From assembly GCA_022241785.1 (NCBI GenBank), contig JAKOMP010000015.1, positions 1 to 64,000 of the forward strand: a DNA stretch of 64,000 bases, written 5' to 3'. Below, piece after piece: positions 54,831-63,881 of this stretch. The DNA comes from Cyanocohniella sp. LLY (lineage in GTDB: Bacteria; Cyanobacteriota; Cyanobacteriia; Cyanobacteriales; Nostocaceae). Position 1 is the stretch's first letter, and the number at the start of each line of letters is the position of its first letter. The notes below the pieces were generated by a model. That model saw only the letters and a list, made by a program, of their open reading frames with translations. It made no database searches and was not told where the DNA came from. A program made the translations under genes and the position numbers.

Positions 54831-56621
54831 CTAAATCCCAGACTGTACACGCCACAAACTTGCATACATCCCATCAAGCTCTAGTAAATCCTCGTGCTTA
54901 CCTTGCTCGACAATTTGACCATCATCCATCACGTAAATACAATGACTATGGCGAATTGTCGATAAACGATGTGCGATCGCAATGGTAGTCCGATTTACAG
55001 TAATCTTATCTAAAGAGCGTTGAATTGCCGCTTCCGTCTCATTATCTACCGCAGATGTCGCTTCATCCAAAATCAAAATCGGCGGATTTTTTACCACTGC
55101 TCTAGCTATAGCTATTCGTTGGCGTTGTCCCCCAGATAACTTTTGTCCTCGTTCCCCAACTATCGTGTCATAACCTTGAGATAACTGCATAATAAAATCA
55201 TGTGCCTCAGCAATTTTCGCTGCATGAATAATTGCTGCATCAGTAGCGTCAAAAGTCCCGTAGGCTATATTTTCTGCCACTGTACCATGAAATAAAAATA
55301 CATCTTGACTCACTAAACCAATGCTGCGACGCAAATCAGATAAATTCAACTTTTGAATATCAATGCCATCAATGGTAATTTTTCCCGCAGAAACATCATA
55401 AAAGCGCAATAATAGTTTGACTAAAGTGCTTTTACCTGAACCTGTAGAACCAACAACCGCAATGGTTTTTCCCGCAGGAATATGTAAAGATAAATCTTTA
55501 ATTATCGTTCCACTATTTCTATAAGCAAAAGTAATATTTTTAAACTCAACTTCTCCCTGTACTTCCTCAACAACTAAAGGCATATCTCCCGTAATAATTT
55601 GGATGGGAGTATCTAACAAATCCATCACTCGTTTTGTGGAAGCCATCGCCCGTTGATAACGGTCAAAGGTTTCTCCTAAAAATACCAATGGCCACAATAA
55701 TCTTTGGACTAAAACTAATAAAACACTATAATTACCGATAGATATCCTACCAGAATACGCTGCCATACCTCCCAGAAATAATAAAGCCGTAAACCCAACT
55801 AAAACCAACATTCTAATTACAGGCACAAAAGCCGCAGAAAGTTTAATTGCTTTGGCATTACTTCTTTTATAAGCTTCGCTTTCTGTTGCTAATCTCGCAC
55901 TTTCATATTTTTCGGCTGTGAAACTTTTAATTGTGGTAATACCACTAATATTATTAGCTAACCGAGAATTTAGAAAACTCACCTTTTCCCTAACATCAGC
56001 ATAACGAGGTTCAAGACGCTTTTGATATACTAATGAACCCCAGAGAATAAAAGGCATTGGTAGCATTGCTGCTAAGGTGATATTCAAAGGTAAAATGAAG
56101 AATGCACCACCAATTAAAATTATAAATGAAGTTGTAACTTGGATAATTTCATTAGCTCCCCCATTTAAAAAGTCTTCGAGTTGATTGATATCATCACCGA
56201 GAATAGACATCAAACCGCCTGTACTACTATCTTCAAAATAAGCCGATTCTAATTCTTGTAAATGATCGTAGGCATCTAAGCGTAAATTATGTTGAATATT
56301 TTGGGCTAAGTTTCGCCAAAGTCTATTATATGCATACTCAGAAAGTGATTCAAATATCCAAACAATCACAGTAATTAGTGAAAGTAGAGCAAATTGCCAT
56401 AAGACTTCTGTAATTCCCAATTTGGCAATAAAAGAATCTTGCTGTTGGACTAATATATCTACAGCGACACCGATTAACCAAGGTGGTGCTAAATCTAAAA
56501 TTGTATTGATAATGGAATAGGTTGTAGCTTGATAAATTTGTGCGCGGTATTTTTTGCCGTAGTTAAGTAATCGTTGCAGGGGAGGAAGTTTATTTACTAT
56601 TATGTCAACTTTTGCAGGCAT
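54831..56621 (-). CDS. ABC exporter, fused membrane and ATPase domains (copy 1)
   Basis: 596 residues. Six-helix type I exporter domain (about 1-330) and ATPase domain with Walker A GSTGSGKST, Q loop VSQDVFLF, signature LSGGQRQRIAIARA, Walker B ILILDEATSAVD and switch AIAHRLST. The closing part (SHCIYVMDDGQIVEQGKHED, YASLWRVQSGI) is nearly the same as in the exporter at 62106-63881. As part of an iron/siderophore locus it may export a siderophore or process an imported one; a lipid exporter is possible. It lies 277 bp after the FecB-type gene on the same strand. Confidence 0.85.
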   Translation of the reverse strand: MPAKVDIIVNKLPPLQRLLNYGKKYRAQIYQATTYSIINTILDLAPPWLIGVAVDILVQQQDSFIAKLGITEVLWQFALLSLITVIVWIFESLSEYAYNRLWRNLAQNIQHNLRLDAYDHLQELESAYFEDSSTGGLMSILGDDINQLEDFLNGGANEIIQVTTSFIILIGGAFFILPLNITLAAMLPMPFILWGSLVYQKRLEPRYADVREKVSFLNSRLANNISGITTIKSFTAEKYESARLATESEAYKRSNAKAIKLSAAFVPVIRMLVLVGFTALLFLGGMAAYSGRISIGNYSVLLVLVQRLLWPLVFLGETFDRYQRAMASTKRVMDLLDTPIQIITGDMPLVVEEVQGEVEFKNITFAYRNSGTIIKDLSLHIPAGKTIAVVGSTGSGKSTLVKLLLRFYDVSAGKITIDGIDIQKLNLSDLRRSIGLVSQDVFLFHGTVAENIAYGTFDATDAAIIHAAKIAEAHDFIMQLSQGYDTIVGERGQKLSGGQRQRIAIARAVVKNPPILILDEATSAVDNETEAAIQRSLDKITVNRTTIAIAHRLSTIRHSHCIYVMDDGQIVEQGKHEDLLELDGMYASLWRVQSGI

Positions 56622-56898: not shown

Positions 56899-57852
56899 TC
56901 AAGGCGTGTTGACAAGATATTTAAATAAGTCATCAATTACTGCATCAGCCGCAAGTAAATTTCCGGCTCGCCAAGTTAGATAATCCATAGAGTAAACGTG
57001 ATTTTGTTGAACGGCTCGCAGCTTTTTCCACAGTGGTTTTTGCTTGAGTTCTTCTATAAATTTTTGGTCATCATCAGTTAAGGTTCCCACAAACAAAATA
57101 TCACCGTCTACTTTCTCTAATTCTTCAAGTGAAAAATAAATTTGTGTAAAAGGTACGATAACATCTTGTGATTTGGGACGTTGCAGTCCCGCATCTTTGA
57201 GAATAGAATCGGGAAAAGAGTTCTTACCTTCGCTGAATATCACACCGGGGGCTAAAAAGACAAGAGAAATTTCTTGATTTTGATAGCGATTTCCTAAAGC
57301 TGCTTTGAGTTTTTCCACTCGCTGATAATAATATTTCCAAGCTTGTTCTGCCGCTTCTTGTTTTCCTAAAACCAGAGTGACAAAATCAAATAAGTCTCGC
57401 CAAGTTTTATTTTGCCAATTAAATAGTACAGTAGGAGCAATTTTTGAAAGTAGAGGATAAAATTGACTTTCGGCATCCCAACCTATAATAATATCGGGCT
57501 TAAGCAGTAAAATTTTTTCTAGATTAGGTGCAGAAATTCCTAATGACTGAATACCATCTACTTTACCCTCTAGATATGTATTTTCGCCCAGCATATCAAT
57601 ATAGGTACTTCCCAGGGGCTTAACTCCAAGGGTAAGCGCATTACCTAAAGTCGGTAAAGAAAAAGTGACAACACGCTGGGGGTTGCTGGGGACACAAGTT
57701 GTACCCATTGTGTGTTGAATGATACGGCAATTTGCACTTGCTAAATTAGTAGCAGAAACTGTATTTTGAACTGTGTGACGGCTACAACCTGTAATCAGTG
57801 CAAAAATTACCAGCATTAATACTAAACAACGTATCCAAGAGCGTATTGTCAT
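56899..57852 (-). CDS. Iron-siderophore ABC transporter substrate-binding lipoprotein (FecB/FhuD-like)
   Basis: 317 residues. Signal peptide with lipobox LITGC (C23), then a class III binding fold: NPQRVVTFSLPTLGNALTLG, LEKILLLKPDIIIGWDAESQ, the long central helix, and YFSLEELEKVDGDILFVGTL. It should bind ferric siderophore in the periplasm and hand it to an ABC permease, which is not in the window. It follows the TonB receptor by 68 bp and is probably in its operon. Confidence 0.88.
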   Translation of the reverse strand: MTIRSWIRCLVLMLVIFALITGCSRHTVQNTVSATNLASANCRIIQHTMGTTCVPSNPQRVVTFSLPTLGNALTLGVKPLGSTYIDMLGENTYLEGKVDGIQSLGISAPNLEKILLLKPDIIIGWDAESQFYPLLSKIAPTVLFNWQNKTWRDLFDFVTLVLGKQEAAEQAWKYYYQRVEKLKAALGNRYQNQEISLVFLAPGVIFSEGKNSFPDSILKDAGLQRPKSQDVIVPFTQIYFSLEELEKVDGDILFVGTLTDDDQKFIEELKQKPLWKKLRAVQQNHVYSMDYLTWRAGNLLAADAVIDDLFKYLVNTP

Positions 57853-57920: not shown

Positions 57921-60503
57921 CTAAAACTGTACTGAAACTGACCCGGTAACTGTAAAAGGTAAACCTTGAGTAATGTTGGCTCGATTGTTTGAACCGGAAG
58001 CATAACGAATATCGAAAAGGTTTTCCACACCTAATCTAAAGGTCAAATTATTCACTCTGTAAGCCGCACCTAAATCAACTCGTAGGTAACTAGGAAGCTC
58101 AAAGCTATTTTCGTTATCTCCTTTTCTTTCACCTACATAAACTAAACCTGAACCTAAACTTAAACCTCTGAGAGAACCTTCAGTAAAATCGTACTTACCA
58201 TAAAGACCTACGCTATGTTGTGGACTATTAATCGGACGATTTCCTTCTTGGACAGGTATGACACTTTGGGTAATTACTGAATCTTGGTAAGTGTAAGCTG
58301 CAATTAAGCTAAAATTATCGGTTACTTTGCCATTAATGTCTAATTCAAATCCTCGACTACGAACATCACCTACAAGGATGCTGAAATCAGGATCACTAGG
58401 ATCGGCTTCTGCAATGTTTGTTTGCGTTAAATTAAACAATGCAGTCGTGATAGTTAGCCTATCATTTAATAGATTGACTTTAGCCCCCAGTTCATATTGA
58501 GTAGCTTTTCTAGGGTCAGGAAAACTACCGTCTGCAAGTAAACCAAATTGCGGCTCTATGGATTTACTAAAGCTAGTATAAATTGCAGCTGAATCTGTTA
58601 GGTTATAAACTAAACCAAGACTAGGGGAAATAAAATTATCTGCACTACCAGTTACAGAATCAAATCCGCCATAGCGCAAACCAGCCAGTAACCGAAATTG
58701 TCCAAGTTTCACAAAATCTTGAATGTAAACGCCCCACTGACTGTCACTAAAATCAACTTTACGATTAGTAAGTCCAGTGGGAATTGGAACATCAAAAGTA
58801 GGGTTGGCAATATCAATACTGCCAAAAAAACCAGCATTTACACCATTGAATCTGGAACGATAATAATTGTACTCAACACCTGTAAGTAACTTATGTTCTG
58901 AGGCTCCAATATTGAAGTCTCCTCGGATTTCACCCCGGAGATTGTATTGATTATAGTCATCAAAAATGGTACGATAGAAACGTGTTAAATTATCACCTTC
59001 AAAACCCAACGCCACAAAAATTGGATTAGCTTCTCTTTGGGTATTAAAGTATTGACCACTAAGATTAACTGACCATTGCTCACTAATGGGCTGATCTAAA
59101 TAGGCGGCTATGCGATAATGATTGTAAATTTGGCTATTGCGAGGGTCTGTATAACTGCGGTCGTAAAAAATCTGCCCATCAGAGAATTTAGCTCCAGTAT
59201 TAAAGTCTTTATCTTGTCGATAATACTCGGTTTCAATTGTTAAAGAACCACCTCCACCCGTTAAAAAAGTGAGTGAGGGAGCAACAAAAATGCGGTTATC
59301 TTCAATGTTTTCTACAAAGTAATCTGAATCTTGAAAAGCTAGAACAAGCCGATAAAGTAAATTTCTGTCTTGAGTTAACGGCCCTGTTAAATCAACCTCA
59401 CCACGATAAAAATTAAAGCTACCTACATTAGCCGTAAATGTATAACTGGGTGTAGCTTGAGGCTTTTTGGTAATATAGTTAACTACTCCACCAGGCGCAC
59501 CTGTACCGTATAGTAAGGATGAAAAACCTTTCAAAATTTCCAAACGTTCGATATTAGCAAAGTCTCTCACTAAAGAACGGTTATTATCTCGTAACCCATT
59601 GATATAAACTTGGCTACCTACATTGAAGCCACGAATTTGAAAGTCAGTGAAGAGTCCACCCTGTGCAATATCTCCTGCTGTCACTCCACTAATATAAGGA
59701 GCTAAATCTTCTACTCGTCGGGGCGCTCTATCCTGAATAAATTCCTCTGTTATGACACCAATTGATGCTGGTGTTTCTAGTAGTGGAATATCAAGCCTAC
59801 TTCCAGTAGTAGCATTCGGCACACGATATCCACCTTGTTCTCCTGTGACTACCAACTCAATAATTTCATCTGGTTGTGCAACGGCTTCTACTGGTAGTGT
59901 CTCAGTTGTCGGTATTTCATCTGCTGGTGGCGTTTCCGGCTCCTGTGATGGTGGCTGCATAGCCGTTGTCTCAGGTCTCACGCCAAAAATTAAACCCTCG
60001 TCGCTATCAAATAATTCAACTTTGGGCAAACTCGTCTCGCCTGTCACTGTCAATCGGATAGTCTTTGCATCGAGATTACTTACAGTCACTACCGTGATTC
60101 CATCAGCAGGATTTTCTTGGCGGAACTCACTACCAGAGGGCAAATTTAACTGAGTATTAGGAATATCTACAATAAAATTATTACCTTCACTCTTACTTAC
60201 AGGCTGCAACTGATCTGAACCTGTAGTCTCTAATATTACTTCCAATTCCTGCTCTGTTTGCCCTAGCTTTACACCCGTTACCTGAATTATTCCTTGGGCA
60301 AGCCACTGTTTAACTGTAGTCGCTGGGCGCTTAACTTCGTTTAAATCAGGGATTTTTGGACTACTTTTAGCCGCAGTTGCCACAGACGTATTGAGATCAG
60401 GATTAATACGGTCTAAACTTGTTTCCGCCCCGGCTGGCAAGGCAACTAGTCCCCAGAAAGAGCCAAGCATCAAGACTTTCAACCAGCAATAATTTGACAC
60501 CAC
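57921..60503 (-). CDS. TonB-dependent siderophore receptor with N-terminal AMIN domain
   Basis: 860 residues. Signal peptide (cut near PAGA), an AMIN domain (about 70-170, VTGVKLGQTEQELEVILETT), a Pro/Glu-rich linker, plug (VTGEQGGYRVPNATTGSRLD, PRRVEDLAPYISGVTAGD, GTGAPGGVVNYITKKP) and a 22-strand barrel ending GSVSVQF with terminal Phe. The TonB box is not obvious. AMIN-TonB receptors are typical of filamentous cyanobacteria. Imports ferric siderophore through the outer membrane. A 17-bp direct repeat upstream (60574-60612) suggests control by the AraC regulator. ATG at 60503. Confidence 0.92.
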   Translation of the reverse strand: MVSNYCWLKVLMLGSFWGLVALPAGAETSLDRINPDLNTSVATAAKSSPKIPDLNEVKRPATTVKQWLAQGIIQVTGVKLGQTEQELEVILETTGSDQLQPVSKSEGNNFIVDIPNTQLNLPSGSEFRQENPADGITVVTVSNLDAKTIRLTVTGETSLPKVELFDSDEGLIFGVRPETTAMQPPSQEPETPPADEIPTTETLPVEAVAQPDEIIELVVTGEQGGYRVPNATTGSRLDIPLLETPASIGVITEEFIQDRAPRRVEDLAPYISGVTAGDIAQGGLFTDFQIRGFNVGSQVYINGLRDNNRSLVRDFANIERLEILKGFSSLLYGTGAPGGVVNYITKKPQATPSYTFTANVGSFNFYRGEVDLTGPLTQDRNLLYRLVLAFQDSDYFVENIEDNRIFVAPSLTFLTGGGGSLTIETEYYRQDKDFNTGAKFSDGQIFYDRSYTDPRNSQIYNHYRIAAYLDQPISEQWSVNLSGQYFNTQREANPIFVALGFEGDNLTRFYRTIFDDYNQYNLRGEIRGDFNIGASEHKLLTGVEYNYYRSRFNGVNAGFFGSIDIANPTFDVPIPTGLTNRKVDFSDSQWGVYIQDFVKLGQFRLLAGLRYGGFDSVTGSADNFISPSLGLVYNLTDSAAIYTSFSKSIEPQFGLLADGSFPDPRKATQYELGAKVNLLNDRLTITTALFNLTQTNIAEADPSDPDFSILVGDVRSRGFELDINGKVTDNFSLIAAYTYQDSVITQSVIPVQEGNRPINSPQHSVGLYGKYDFTEGSLRGLSLGSGLVYVGERKGDNENSFELPSYLRVDLGAAYRVNNLTFRLGVENLFDIRYASGSNNRANITQGLPFTVTGSVSVQF

Positions 60504-60525
60504 TGATCACACCATTAATAAAAAT

Positions 60526-60553
60526 GACTTTCAATAAAAATACCGTGAAAGTC
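60526..60553. promoter_or_regulatory. Inverted repeat GACTTTC / GAAAGTC before the receptor gene
   Basis: GACTTTC (60526-60532) and GAAAGTC (60547-60553) are perfect 7-bp arms with a 14-nt spacer, overlapping AATAAAAAT direct repeats at 60517-60525 and 60533-60541. It lies 23-50 bp before the start codon, probably in the promoter or leader. Confidence 0.35.
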
Positions 60554-60573
60554 TGTGTTAACCAAGACTAATC

Positions 60574-60612
60574 CGATAGGTAGACGGAATATTTTCGATA
60601 GCTAAACGGAAT
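60574..60612 (-). promoter_or_regulatory. 17-bp direct repeat, candidate AraC/PchR-type operator
   Basis: CGATAGGTAGACGGAAT (60574-60590) and CGATAGCTAAACGGAAT (60596-60612) match at 15 of 17 positions with a 22-bp period, two helical turns. AraC-family activators bind such tandem half-sites next to promoters. It sits 71-109 bp upstream of the receptor start; the second unit runs over the stop of the AraC gene. Confidence 0.6.
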
Positions 60613-61597
60613 TTTTTCCCAGTTTTTGGTATTCCTTGGGGTTCATGCCAAACTGCTTGCGGAATGCAGCAGCAAAAGGACTGCGGCTGTTGTAACCCAT
60701 TGCATGAGCAATTTCGGTAATTTTCATTTCTCCTATTTCCAGCAGTTGTCGCGCTTGTTCAAGTTTGTAATTACGCAAATAGCCAAATACTGTTGTGCCA
60801 AAACAACAACGAAAGCCCCGTTTTAAGGTGCATTCATTTAAACCAACTTGTCGCGCTAATTCGTGTAAGGAGGGTGGATTGTCCAAGCGTTGCAGGATGA
60901 TTTCCCTGGCGTGGTGGATTCTATCGACTACATCTGGTTGTAAAGGCTGAATATTGGTTTTACCATCACGCATCTCTACTTCTTGTGCTAGTAGCATTCC
61001 CATCAATTCCAGCACCTTACTTTCTAGATACATCCGTTTGGCAATACTCCGATAGGGACAGTGTAAAATTTGCTGCGCCACTCTCTGCATCGGTAAAGTG
61101 GCATTGCCACAGCGATGGTAATACTGATCACAGGGTCGAATTAAGTGCTGCAACTGTTTTGGTAATTCTCCTTCACTATTTCCCGCAAAGGAACGCAGTA
61201 CATCAGGCTGCATCGTAAATTCAACCTCAAGAAATGGCTGTTCGGGATCACACTGAGTTTTTCTTTGAGGAACCAAACCACTGCCTTGAAAAATATACTT
61301 TCCGCTACCTATGGATGTATATTTATCTTCATGTTCCCCTGAAAAATGAAAATGGTAATTTAGCCAACATTCTGTTTCTAGGTCTTCAGTAATCATGCGA
61401 TCGCACAACCGCAAATCACCAATAGCTAACTCCAAACCCTGACGCAGCTTGATTTCTCGCCAATAGCCTTGTCCCAGTACCTTTGGGTAATCATATATCA
61501 CATCTAACTGATCATCGGGGTCTGGATATTGGCAACTGTTTTCTGTCTTTTGATACAACAGCTCGTGGAAGGTTTGCTCGGAGATAGTGATAGTCAT
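60602..61597 (-). CDS. AraC-family transcriptional regulator (PchR-like)
   Basis: 331 residues. The N-terminal 220 residues are a ligand-sensing domain of the PchR/YbtA kind (YWREIKLRQGLELAIGDLRL, HFHFSGEHEDKYTSIGSGKY). The C-terminal double HTH (about 229-330) is LHELARQVGLNECTLKRGFR and ITEIAHAMGYNSRSPFAAAF, then FGMNPKEYQK. PchR-like regulators sense ferric siderophore and activate receptor genes. Located 98 bp upstream of the TonB receptor on the same strand. ATG at 61597. Confidence 0.88.
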   Translation of the reverse strand: MTITISEQTFHELLYQKTENSCQYPDPDDQLDVIYDYPKVLGQGYWREIKLRQGLELAIGDLRLCDRMITEDLETECWLNYHFHFSGEHEDKYTSIGSGKYIFQGSGLVPQRKTQCDPEQPFLEVEFTMQPDVLRSFAGNSEGELPKQLQHLIRPCDQYYHRCGNATLPMQRVAQQILHCPYRSIAKRMYLESKVLELMGMLLAQEVEMRDGKTNIQPLQPDVVDRIHHAREIILQRLDNPPSLHELARQVGLNECTLKRGFRCCFGTTVFGYLRNYKLEQARQLLEIGEMKITEIAHAMGYNSRSPFAAAFRKQFGMNPKEYQKLGKNSV

Positions 61598-61827: not shown

Positions 61828-62070
61828 ATGGCGACACAACTCGATAAAACCAAAGAGCCACAAAATCTGGTAATCTCTTGGGAAGCGTTGCCGGATGATT
61901 TTCAACTAGAGGATGAACCAGTGGAAAATACAGGTCAGCCAATCTTGGCTGGTGCTTTGCGTGAAAGCTTAGAAATTAGCGGTTTCATCCAACCGCAGAT
62001 GTTGATTGCTTCCAATTTTGGTCTTTGTGTAACTGTTAACGGATTTCTGTACTTATACGCTTCTTTGTAA
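61828..62070 (+). pseudogene. Truncated Uma2 family gene (N-terminal third)
   Basis: 80 codons: QNLVISWEALPDDFQLEDEP, GQPILAGALRESLEISGFIQ and PQMLIASNFGLCVTVNG are the N-terminal blocks of a common cyanobacterial Uma2 subtype, normally followed by the PD-(D/E)XK core. Here the frame degenerates to FLYLYASL and stops, so the catalytic core is missing. It lies between the AraC gene and the second ABC exporter, in opposite orientation to both. Confidence 0.65.
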
Positions 62071-62105: not shown

Positions 62106-63881
62106 TTAATGAATTCCAGACTGTACGCGCCACAGACTGGCATAAATACCATCCCGTGCGAGTAACTCCTCGTGTTTACCCTGCTCGACAATTTGACCAC
62201 GATCCATCACATATATGCAATGACTGTGGCGAATTGTGGAAAGACGATGAGCGATCGCTATAGTTGTGCGATTTTGGGTAATCATCGCCAGTGACTTTTG
62301 GATAGCTGCTTCCGTTTCATTATCTACCGCAGAGGTCGCCTCATCTAAAATCAAAATTGGTGGGTCTTTGAGAATAGCACGGGCGATCGCAATCCTTTGT
62401 CTTTGTCCACCAGAAAGTTTCTGACCTCTTTCACCAACGATAGTATCGTACTGGAGCGGTAGTTGCTCGATAAATTCATCAGCCTGGGCTAATTTGGCAG
62501 CGTGGATAATTTCTTCATGACTTGCATCAAAACTGCCATAAGCAATATTTTCCGCCACTGTACCGTGAAATAAAAACACATCCTGACTCACCCAACCGAT
62601 ACAGCGCCGCAGTTCTAAGAGTTGCAATTCCCGAATATCAATACCATCAACCAGAATTTGTCCGCCTTGGACTTCGTAAAAGCGCAGCAGTAATTTGACT
62701 AGGGTACTTTTACCAGAACCAGTTGCACCAACAATGCCAATATTTGCCCCAGGGGGAATATGCAATGATAAATCTTGCAGTACATTGGTGCGTCCGTTGT
62801 ATGCAAAGTTGATATTGTCAAAATGCACCTCACCGCGTACTTTTGGTAAAGTACGGTTTCCTATGGGAATAGCAATGGGAGTATCCAACAATCCCATAAC
62901 TCGATTAATGGAAGCGATCGCCCGTTGATACTGATCCATGATGTTACTCAAACTGGCAAACGGCCAGAGTAATTGCTGGACAATGAACACCATGAAACCG
63001 TAAGTTCCCACAGTTAACTGATTATTCGCCACTGCAACCCCACCAAAAAACAATGTGGCGATGAAACCGATTACAACCACTAATCGAATTGCTGGATAAA
63101 AAGCAGCACTAAGTGCGATCGCTCTAGAGTTACTGCGGCGATAGGCTTCACTTTCAGATGAGACACGTTCTCTTTCGTAGGTTTCAGCAGTAAAGCTTTT
63201 AATTGTGGCAATCCCTGAGAGGTTATTAGCTAAACGACTATTAATAAATCCAGCTTGATCACGCACATCTGCATAACGGGGTGCGAGTCGTTTTTGAAAT
63301 GCTAAAGAACCCCAGAATATGAAGGGTGTGGGTAGGATTGCCAACCAAGCTACATTGGGGGCAATGAGAATAAATGAACCGCCTACAGCTAAAATAGTGG
63401 TAATAAATTGCAGAATACTAGCTGCACCAGAATCAAGAAATCTTTCTAATTGATTGATATCATCATTTAATATTGACAAAAGTGTGCCTGTAGAGCGTTC
63501 TTCAAAGTAGCTCAGTTCTAGTTCTTGTAGATGACTATAAGCATCAAGACGTAGCTCATGCTGCATAGTTTGGGCAAGGTTGCGCCACAAGCGATCATAA
63601 ATAAATTCAGACAGTGATTCTAAAGTCCAAATTAGTAAAGTTAATAATGATAGTATTGCCAGTTGTCCAATGATGTTAGTAATCCCAAATTTGGCAATGA
63701 TAGAGTTCTCTTTTTCCACCACGATATCTACTGCCACACCTATTAAATACGATGGTGCCAGGTCGAAGATTTTATTGAGGATGGTAAAGATTATAGCAGT
63801 CCATACTTGAGGGCGGTAGTTTTTGGCGTAGTGTAACAACCGTAGGAGGGGATGCTGTTTGGTTAATGGTAAAGAGGTCAT
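62106..63881 (-). CDS. ABC exporter, fused membrane and ATPase domains (copy 2)
   Basis: 591 residues, same layout as the exporter at 54831-56621: six-helix domain (about 1-325), Walker A GATGSGKST, VSQDVFLFHGTVAENIAYG, LSGGQRQRIAIARA, ILILDEATSAVD and AIAHRLST. Long stretches of both halves match copy 1 closely, so the two are paralogs that may form a heterodimer or handle related substrates. 27 bp after the preceding gene (63909-64000), so in an operon with it. ATG at 63881. Confidence 0.85.
   Translation of the reverse strand: MTSLPLTKQHPLLRLLHYAKNYRPQVWTAIIFTILNKIFDLAPSYLIGVAVDIVVEKENSIIAKFGITNIIGQLAILSLLTLLIWTLESLSEFIYDRLWRNLAQTMQHELRLDAYSHLQELELSYFEERSTGTLLSILNDDINQLERFLDSGAASILQFITTILAVGGSFILIAPNVAWLAILPTPFIFWGSLAFQKRLAPRYADVRDQAGFINSRLANNLSGIATIKSFTAETYERERVSSESEAYRRSNSRAIALSAAFYPAIRLVVVIGFIATLFFGGVAVANNQLTVGTYGFMVFIVQQLLWPFASLSNIMDQYQRAIASINRVMGLLDTPIAIPIGNRTLPKVRGEVHFDNINFAYNGRTNVLQDLSLHIPPGANIGIVGATGSGKSTLVKLLLRFYEVQGGQILVDGIDIRELQLLELRRCIGWVSQDVFLFHGTVAENIAYGSFDASHEEIIHAAKLAQADEFIEQLPLQYDTIVGERGQKLSGGQRQRIAIARAILKDPPILILDEATSAVDNETEAAIQKSLAMITQNRTTIAIAHRLSTIRHSHCIYVMDRGQIVEQGKHEELLARDGIYASLWRVQSGIH

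Follow-up and report, generated by a model that had tools for sequence, protein, structure and literature searches.

Between the gene of an AraC-family regulator and that of a TonB-dependent siderophore receptor in Cyanocohniella sp. LLY lies a 17-bp direct repeat, which raises the question of what the repeat does and which protein reads it. The window, that is the whole stretch of 64,000 nucleotides analysed here, lies on contig C227 of a 6.78 Mb genome. Judged from sequence comparisons, the repeat is most probably (about 90%) an operator with two half-sites belonging to the neighbouring PchR/IutR-like AraC regulator, which would activate the TonB-receptor promoter.

The repeat and its gene neighbourhood

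The features of the locus are listed below in minus-strand order.

62106 to 63881, minus strand: further gene for an MsbA-type ABC transporter, upstream of the regulator
60602 to 61597, minus strand: PchR/IutR-like AraC-family regulator, 331 aa, with HTH_18 at residues 247-325
60665 to 60691, minus strand: second recognition helix of the regulator, codons 303-311, NSRSPFAAA; residues 305-309 track operator type
60594 to 60615, minus strand: operator half-site 1 (distal), AAAATTCCGTTTAGCTATCGAA, containing the copy 60596-60612 and the AraC TAG stop at 60602-60604
60572 to 60593, minus strand: operator half-site 2 (promoter-proximal), AATATTCCGTCTACCTATCGGA, containing the copy 60574-60590
60537 to 60542, minus strand: TATTTT, predicted -10 hexamer of the receptor promoter, standing 46 bp past the half-site 2 TCCG as counted from its T
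60520 to 60538, minus strand: weak and uncertain match to a Fur box, TTTATTGAAAGTCATTTTT, which overlaps the predicted start of transcription
57921 to 60503, minus strand: TonB-dependent siderophore receptor with an N-terminal AMIN domain, the predicted target
56899 to 57852, minus strand: Fe-siderophore periplasmic binding protein, 68 bp past the receptor
54831 to 56621, minus strand: MsbA-type ABC transporter gene, downstream in minus-strand order

The two copies, CGATAGGTAGACGGAAT at 60574-60590 and CGATAGCTAAACGGAAT at 60596-60612, are identical at 15 of 17 positions with a period of 22 bp, and each is an exact match to CGATAGNTANACGGAAT. On the minus strand, which carries the genes, the element reads AAAAT-TCCGTTTAGCTATCG-AAAATAT-TCCGTCTACCTATCG. 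A chance origin was ruled out by dinucleotide shuffles of the surrounding 300 bp, which gave a 15/17 repeat at period 22 in 0 of 2000 cases and at any period from 15 to 30 in 1 of 2000. The preliminary description had given the length, identity and period of the repeat exactly, and the 71 bp that it had placed between repeat and receptor proved correct, with the receptor ORF starting (GTG) at 60503. It had missed that the copy 60596-60612 is partly coding, as the final 11 bp of the AraC gene, with the TAG stop, fall within it.

On the minus strand the genes run in the order MsbA-type ABC transporter, AraC regulator, repeat, TonB receptor, Fe-siderophore binding protein and MsbA-type ABC transporter. 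The binding-protein gene is probably in the same operon as the receptor, and both ABC transporter genes are possibly part of the same uptake locus. The regulator has the two marks of the PchR/IutR kind, an AraC DNA-binding domain and a gene placed directly upstream of a TonB siderophore receptor, and its relatives keep this gene order. Five PchR-like regulators besides this one and twelve TonB-receptor plug domains were found in the genome. The named relatives of the regulator are cyanobacterial, many of them from Nostocales; two contigs labelled as Candidatus Gracilibacteria MAG (L035 and L047) carry close relatives (72% and 50% identity) and are probably misbinned cyanobacterial DNA. Elsewhere in the window, a short open frame in the gap that separates the regulator from the ABC gene upstream of it (61829-62070, MATQLDKTKEPQNLVISWEALPDDFQ...) looks like a truncated gene remnant, and a tandem heptamer-type repeat from 17689 onward, with matches at periods 21, 28 and 35, is of a kind common in cyanobacterial genomes.

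Recurrence of the repeat at regulator-receptor loci

For 80 relatives of the regulator from named genomes, the stretch 3' of the regulator was examined for direct repeats of at least 14/17. Two half-sites of about 17 bp in direct orientation and about two helical turns apart, as in an AraC-type operator, were found not only in the window but with periods of 20-23 bp in 47 of the 80 loci, for which shuffles expect 0.4. Each of the other periods from 10 to 60 occurred in no more than two loci, and 33 of the 80 loci had no repeat at this threshold. Upstream of the regulator, where it was sought as an autoregulation copy, no such repeat was found in 75 loci. Fifty anchored operators gave the half-site consensus AAAAT-TCCG-NYTAGCGTTCAA, in which CC is invariant, TCCG nearly constant and positions 7-14 subtype-specific.

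Within the genome of the window, the regulator-receptor gaps of paralogous pairs on C37 and on C227 (just beyond the window) hold TCCGTYTAGCGTTCA repeats with periods of 21 and 22. The C154 receptor has TCCGTTTGGGGCAAG twice at 21 bp, its regulator being separated by other DNA, the C111 receptor has a single strong half-site, and two paralogous pairs (L011 and L013) have degenerate versions only. On C154 of this genome (G000; L014 and L029), the PchR-like regulator lies about 1.5 kb from the likely operator and receptor with an opposite-strand ORF between them, as if the pair had been split by an insertion, and one TAA was counted inside the tblastn match.

The repeat had also been put forward as a search motif for the whole regulon, and this proposal stood only in part. 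The literal single motif is useless as a stand-alone search tool, since with up to 3 mismatches it gave 125 matches genome-wide versus 160 for a reversed control, and only its paired occurrence on C37 was informative. A CCGTYTA pair pattern had 3 matches versus 5 for the reversed control, a count that itself proves nothing, and all 3 sit between a PchR-like regulator and a receptor. We built a profile (R1) from sequence only and scanned whole genomes with it regardless of gene position. In the own genome it found five sites with E<0.2, each directly upstream of a TonB receptor, the next match having E=0.77. The wider family motif does find sites before TonB receptors; the exact CTATCG-type half-site pair occurs once in the genome. 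Because the exact pair is unique and the sites of the wider motif adjoin paralogous regulators, the regulon of the window regulator is probably this single receptor operon.

Across 60 genomes of the family, the own genome included, 23 of the 25 fetched R1 matches with E<1e-3 had a same-strand receptor downstream, the training loci having been picked for regulator adjacency, not receptor adjacency, and some scanned genomes perhaps being training genomes. One of the two exceptions is cut by the contig end; the other (L148) follows a regulator, with no receptor in the fetched stretch. Neither a regulator nor a receptor gene accompanied the weaker matches in the family genomes (0/5). When 291 genomes of the class were scanned, matches were obtained in 42 genomes from 12 families, with 27 new loci: 18 sites before a TonB receptor, five before an MsbA-type ABC gene, two before ExbB (Pfam was run on one, and the other has a near-identical site), one before an MFS gene and one running off the contig. 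At L159 and L173, the contig end was taken into account in placing the operator. The occurrence of the same operator before MsbA-type ABC transporters, an MFS gene or ExbB (L165, L171, L173, L176 and L178-L181) suggests that further siderophore-uptake genes belong to the regulon in other cyanobacteria.

Promoter geometry and the direction of control

The operator keeps a fixed position upstream of the -10 of its target, as expected of the AraC type: counted from the T of TCCG in half-site 2, a TANNNT hexamer follows at exactly 46 bp in 36 of 50 loci, which represent 18 of 25 sequence clusters, and the same offset was found in 22 of 27 further loci. Conservation of a -35 is at most weak, with matches of at least 4/6 in 19 of the 50 loci versus about 14% of control positions, a modest excess. 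About 30 bp separate the end of the operator from the predicted -10 and, with so weak a -35, RNA polymerase would therefore need a bound activator. Lying upstream of the -10 at a fixed spacing and ending just before the place of a -35, the operator takes the usual position of an activator site.

The I1-I2 sites of AraC at araBAD are likewise head-to-tail 17-bp half-sites, about 21 bp apart and upstream of the promoter, each read by two helix-turn-helices. The operator in the window differs from them in sequence and effector, ends farther from the -10 and overlaps the stop codon of the regulator gene. In the window, two subunits of the regulator would sit head-to-tail on the same side of the double helix, 22 bp being about two turns; in each, the first helix-turn-helix would read the near-constant TCCG and the second the variable CTATCG part. 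Under iron limitation, repression by FurA would be relieved, the regulator would load its ligand, presumably a ferri-siderophore or iron, and the receptor promoter would be activated. We infer the binding, its sign, the effector and the role of FurA partly from work on Synechocystis and Anabaena (PMC11221513, PMC12282138, PMC4005646).

This kind of regulator is already known, since in Synechocystis PchR-like IutR proteins have been reported to bind the promoters of TonB receptors. In that study, the IutR proteins bind these promoters in gel shifts and activate them, are needed for receptor induction under iron limitation, and differ in their targets among the three paralogues of PCC 6803 (PMC11221513). 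Like the window regulator, they are PchR-like, and their genes immediately precede those of TonB receptors. Anabaena PCC 7120 has twelve TonB-receptor genes placed immediately after a regulator gene; in 2009 the mechanism by which cyanobacteria control their TonB receptors was still described as unknown (PMC2771747), the regulators being identified in 2024 (PMC11221513). The available text of the 2024 study presents three possible ChIP motifs as a figure only and describes no repeat geometry, -10 spacing, stop overlap or helix relation; a broad regulon was inferred there from IutR1 ChIP-seq, in contrast to the narrow one predicted here. Newly described here are the operator anatomy, the half-site that contains the stop codon of the regulator gene, and an apparent helix-to-site code.

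Outside cyanobacteria, PchR of Pseudomonas aeruginosa with its PchR-box (Michel et al. 2005, cited in PMC8477383) is likewise, by its description, an activator of the AraC family that controls a siderophore receptor operon jointly with Fur; the effector there is Fe-pyochelin (PMC8477383). YbtA is similar by description, being of the AraC family, activating genes for a siderophore receptor and for uptake, and having putative repeat sites beside Fur boxes; it differs in that its sites are described as pseudopalindromes and that it also controls siderophore biosynthesis (PMC8725597).

The example of PchR, described as a repressor when unloaded and an activator when loaded with Fe-pyochelin (PMC8477383), brings up the strongest alternative, namely that the same operator and regulator act mainly to repress, or repress without ligand and activate with it. 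We consider this quite unlikely, as the operator stands upstream of the -10 at a fixed spacing without covering it and the -35 is at most weak, and the Synechocystis iutR triple mutant loses induction with no gain of expression (PMC11221513).

A Fur-type signal may lie closer to the receptor gene. The match at 60520-60538 agrees with the E. coli consensus at 12 of 19 positions, which 2% of shuffles equalled, and a weak inverted-repeat signal was seen across loci at the same offset, which is suggestive of Fur boxes near the receptor promoter. A perfect 8-bp inverted repeat, GACTTTCA / TGAAAGTC, flanks the predicted -10 (60526-60533 / 60546-60553) and is only partly kept in orthologous loci; it is possibly due to chance or part of a Fur-like site.

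Recognition helix and stop-codon overlap

If the adjacent regulator reads the repeat, its DNA-contacting residues would be expected to vary with the site. In 49 loci, the distance between operators followed the distance between DNA-binding domains with the N-terminal domain controlled (partial r=0.46, 0/2000 permutations), while the converse partial correlation for the N-terminal domain was absent (-0.12), phylogeny being controlled only partly in this comparison. The four best columns, residues 309, 307, 305 and 306, map to the second recognition helix when the regulator is aligned with SoxS, and columns 302, 309, 306, 307 and 305 were still near the top (r about 0.4) in 24 dereplicated loci. 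The high rank of columns 328 and 330 is trivial, because the operator encodes them. The pairing of helix and site comes close to a code. Regulators with RSYFA mostly have CGTTCAA sites and those with RSPFA have CTATCG, as in the window, or CTCTCG; RGYFA goes with GGATCAA or GATCAA, LPSFS with GAATAA and LTAFG with TTGAGCCGAAT. Hardly any variation is seen in TCCG or in the first helix (N-D/E-C-T-L-K-R/Q-G-F). Within the genome, the L010 and L012 regulators (both RSYFA) share one site and the RSPFA regulator of the window has its own.

These results bear on whether the repeat is instead a site of FurA or of some unlinked factor, with the AraC neighbour incidental. Anabaena TonB-receptor genes are predicted or known FurA targets (PMC4005646), and a few sites (L115 and L133) have no adjacent AraC gene. 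However, the element at 60574-60612 is a direct repeat with an invariant CC, unlike the AT-rich 19-bp inverted repeat of a Fur box and the FurA consensus AAATAAATTCTCAATAAAT (PMC4005646), and its variable part changes together with the recognition helix of the AraC protein encoded next to it, so that we regard this explanation as very improbable. The preliminary assignment of the repeat to the adjacent AraC regulator as its operator is strongly supported by recurrence, by the fixed -10 distance, by own-genome sites found only before TonB receptors and by the tracking of the helix. With a defined operator, a fixed promoter spacing and a helix-to-site relation, sequence alone would suffice to match regulators with receptors and to foresee which of the siderophore circuits are insulated and which possibly cross-talk.

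Half-site 1 holds the final codons of the regulator, AAT TCC GTT TAG (N S V stop), and the T of TCCG lies exactly 6 bp before the regulator stop in 23 of 50 loci. The terminal Ser is TCC in all 23, partly by construction because the operators were anchored on TCCG, while TCC makes up 9.7% of the Ser codons in the rest of these genes; with no selection for TCCG, TCC was found in 31 of 36 regulators ending in Ser-x-stop. The stop type follows the operator type, TAG in TCTAGC sites and TGA in TTTGAGC sites, and the stop trinucleotide is repeated in the non-coding copy in 13 of the 23 loci. The terminal TCC bias, the tracking of the operator by the stop and the recurrence of the trinucleotide in the non-coding copy together point to selection on the DNA and not on the protein tail. 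An operator half-site placed over the stop of its own regulator is a clear case of mutual constraint between coding and regulatory sequence.

No terminator was found between regulator and receptor, so that with the stop overlap the regulator transcript may run through the repeat; action in RNA (as leader, terminator or in translational coupling of regulator and receptor) or an origin as a recombination relic is nevertheless the least probable explanation of all, as in other loci the repeat is found about 110 bp beyond the stop or without a regulator gene beside it, the -10 distance is kept in 36 of 50 loci, and a relic would not preserve the fixed period, the -10 spacing and the near-invariant TCCG. 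With the operator reading retained, a broader and as a whole rather doubtful picture can be drawn, in which the operator would be DNA under double constraint that ties a regulator to its own receptor, with built-in feedback and a readable specificity code insulating parallel siderophore circuits. The half-site would dictate the last codons and stop of the regulator (TCC-NNN-stop) in many cyanobacterial lineages, transcription of the regulator through its own operator would provide feedback, and recognition helix 2, varying against the constant TCCG, would form a natural code. At L065 (about 1190-1240), half-site 1 is without a stop, and the reading frame continues through the operator to a TAG in half-site 2, giving the tail NKNSVKDKFYSV.
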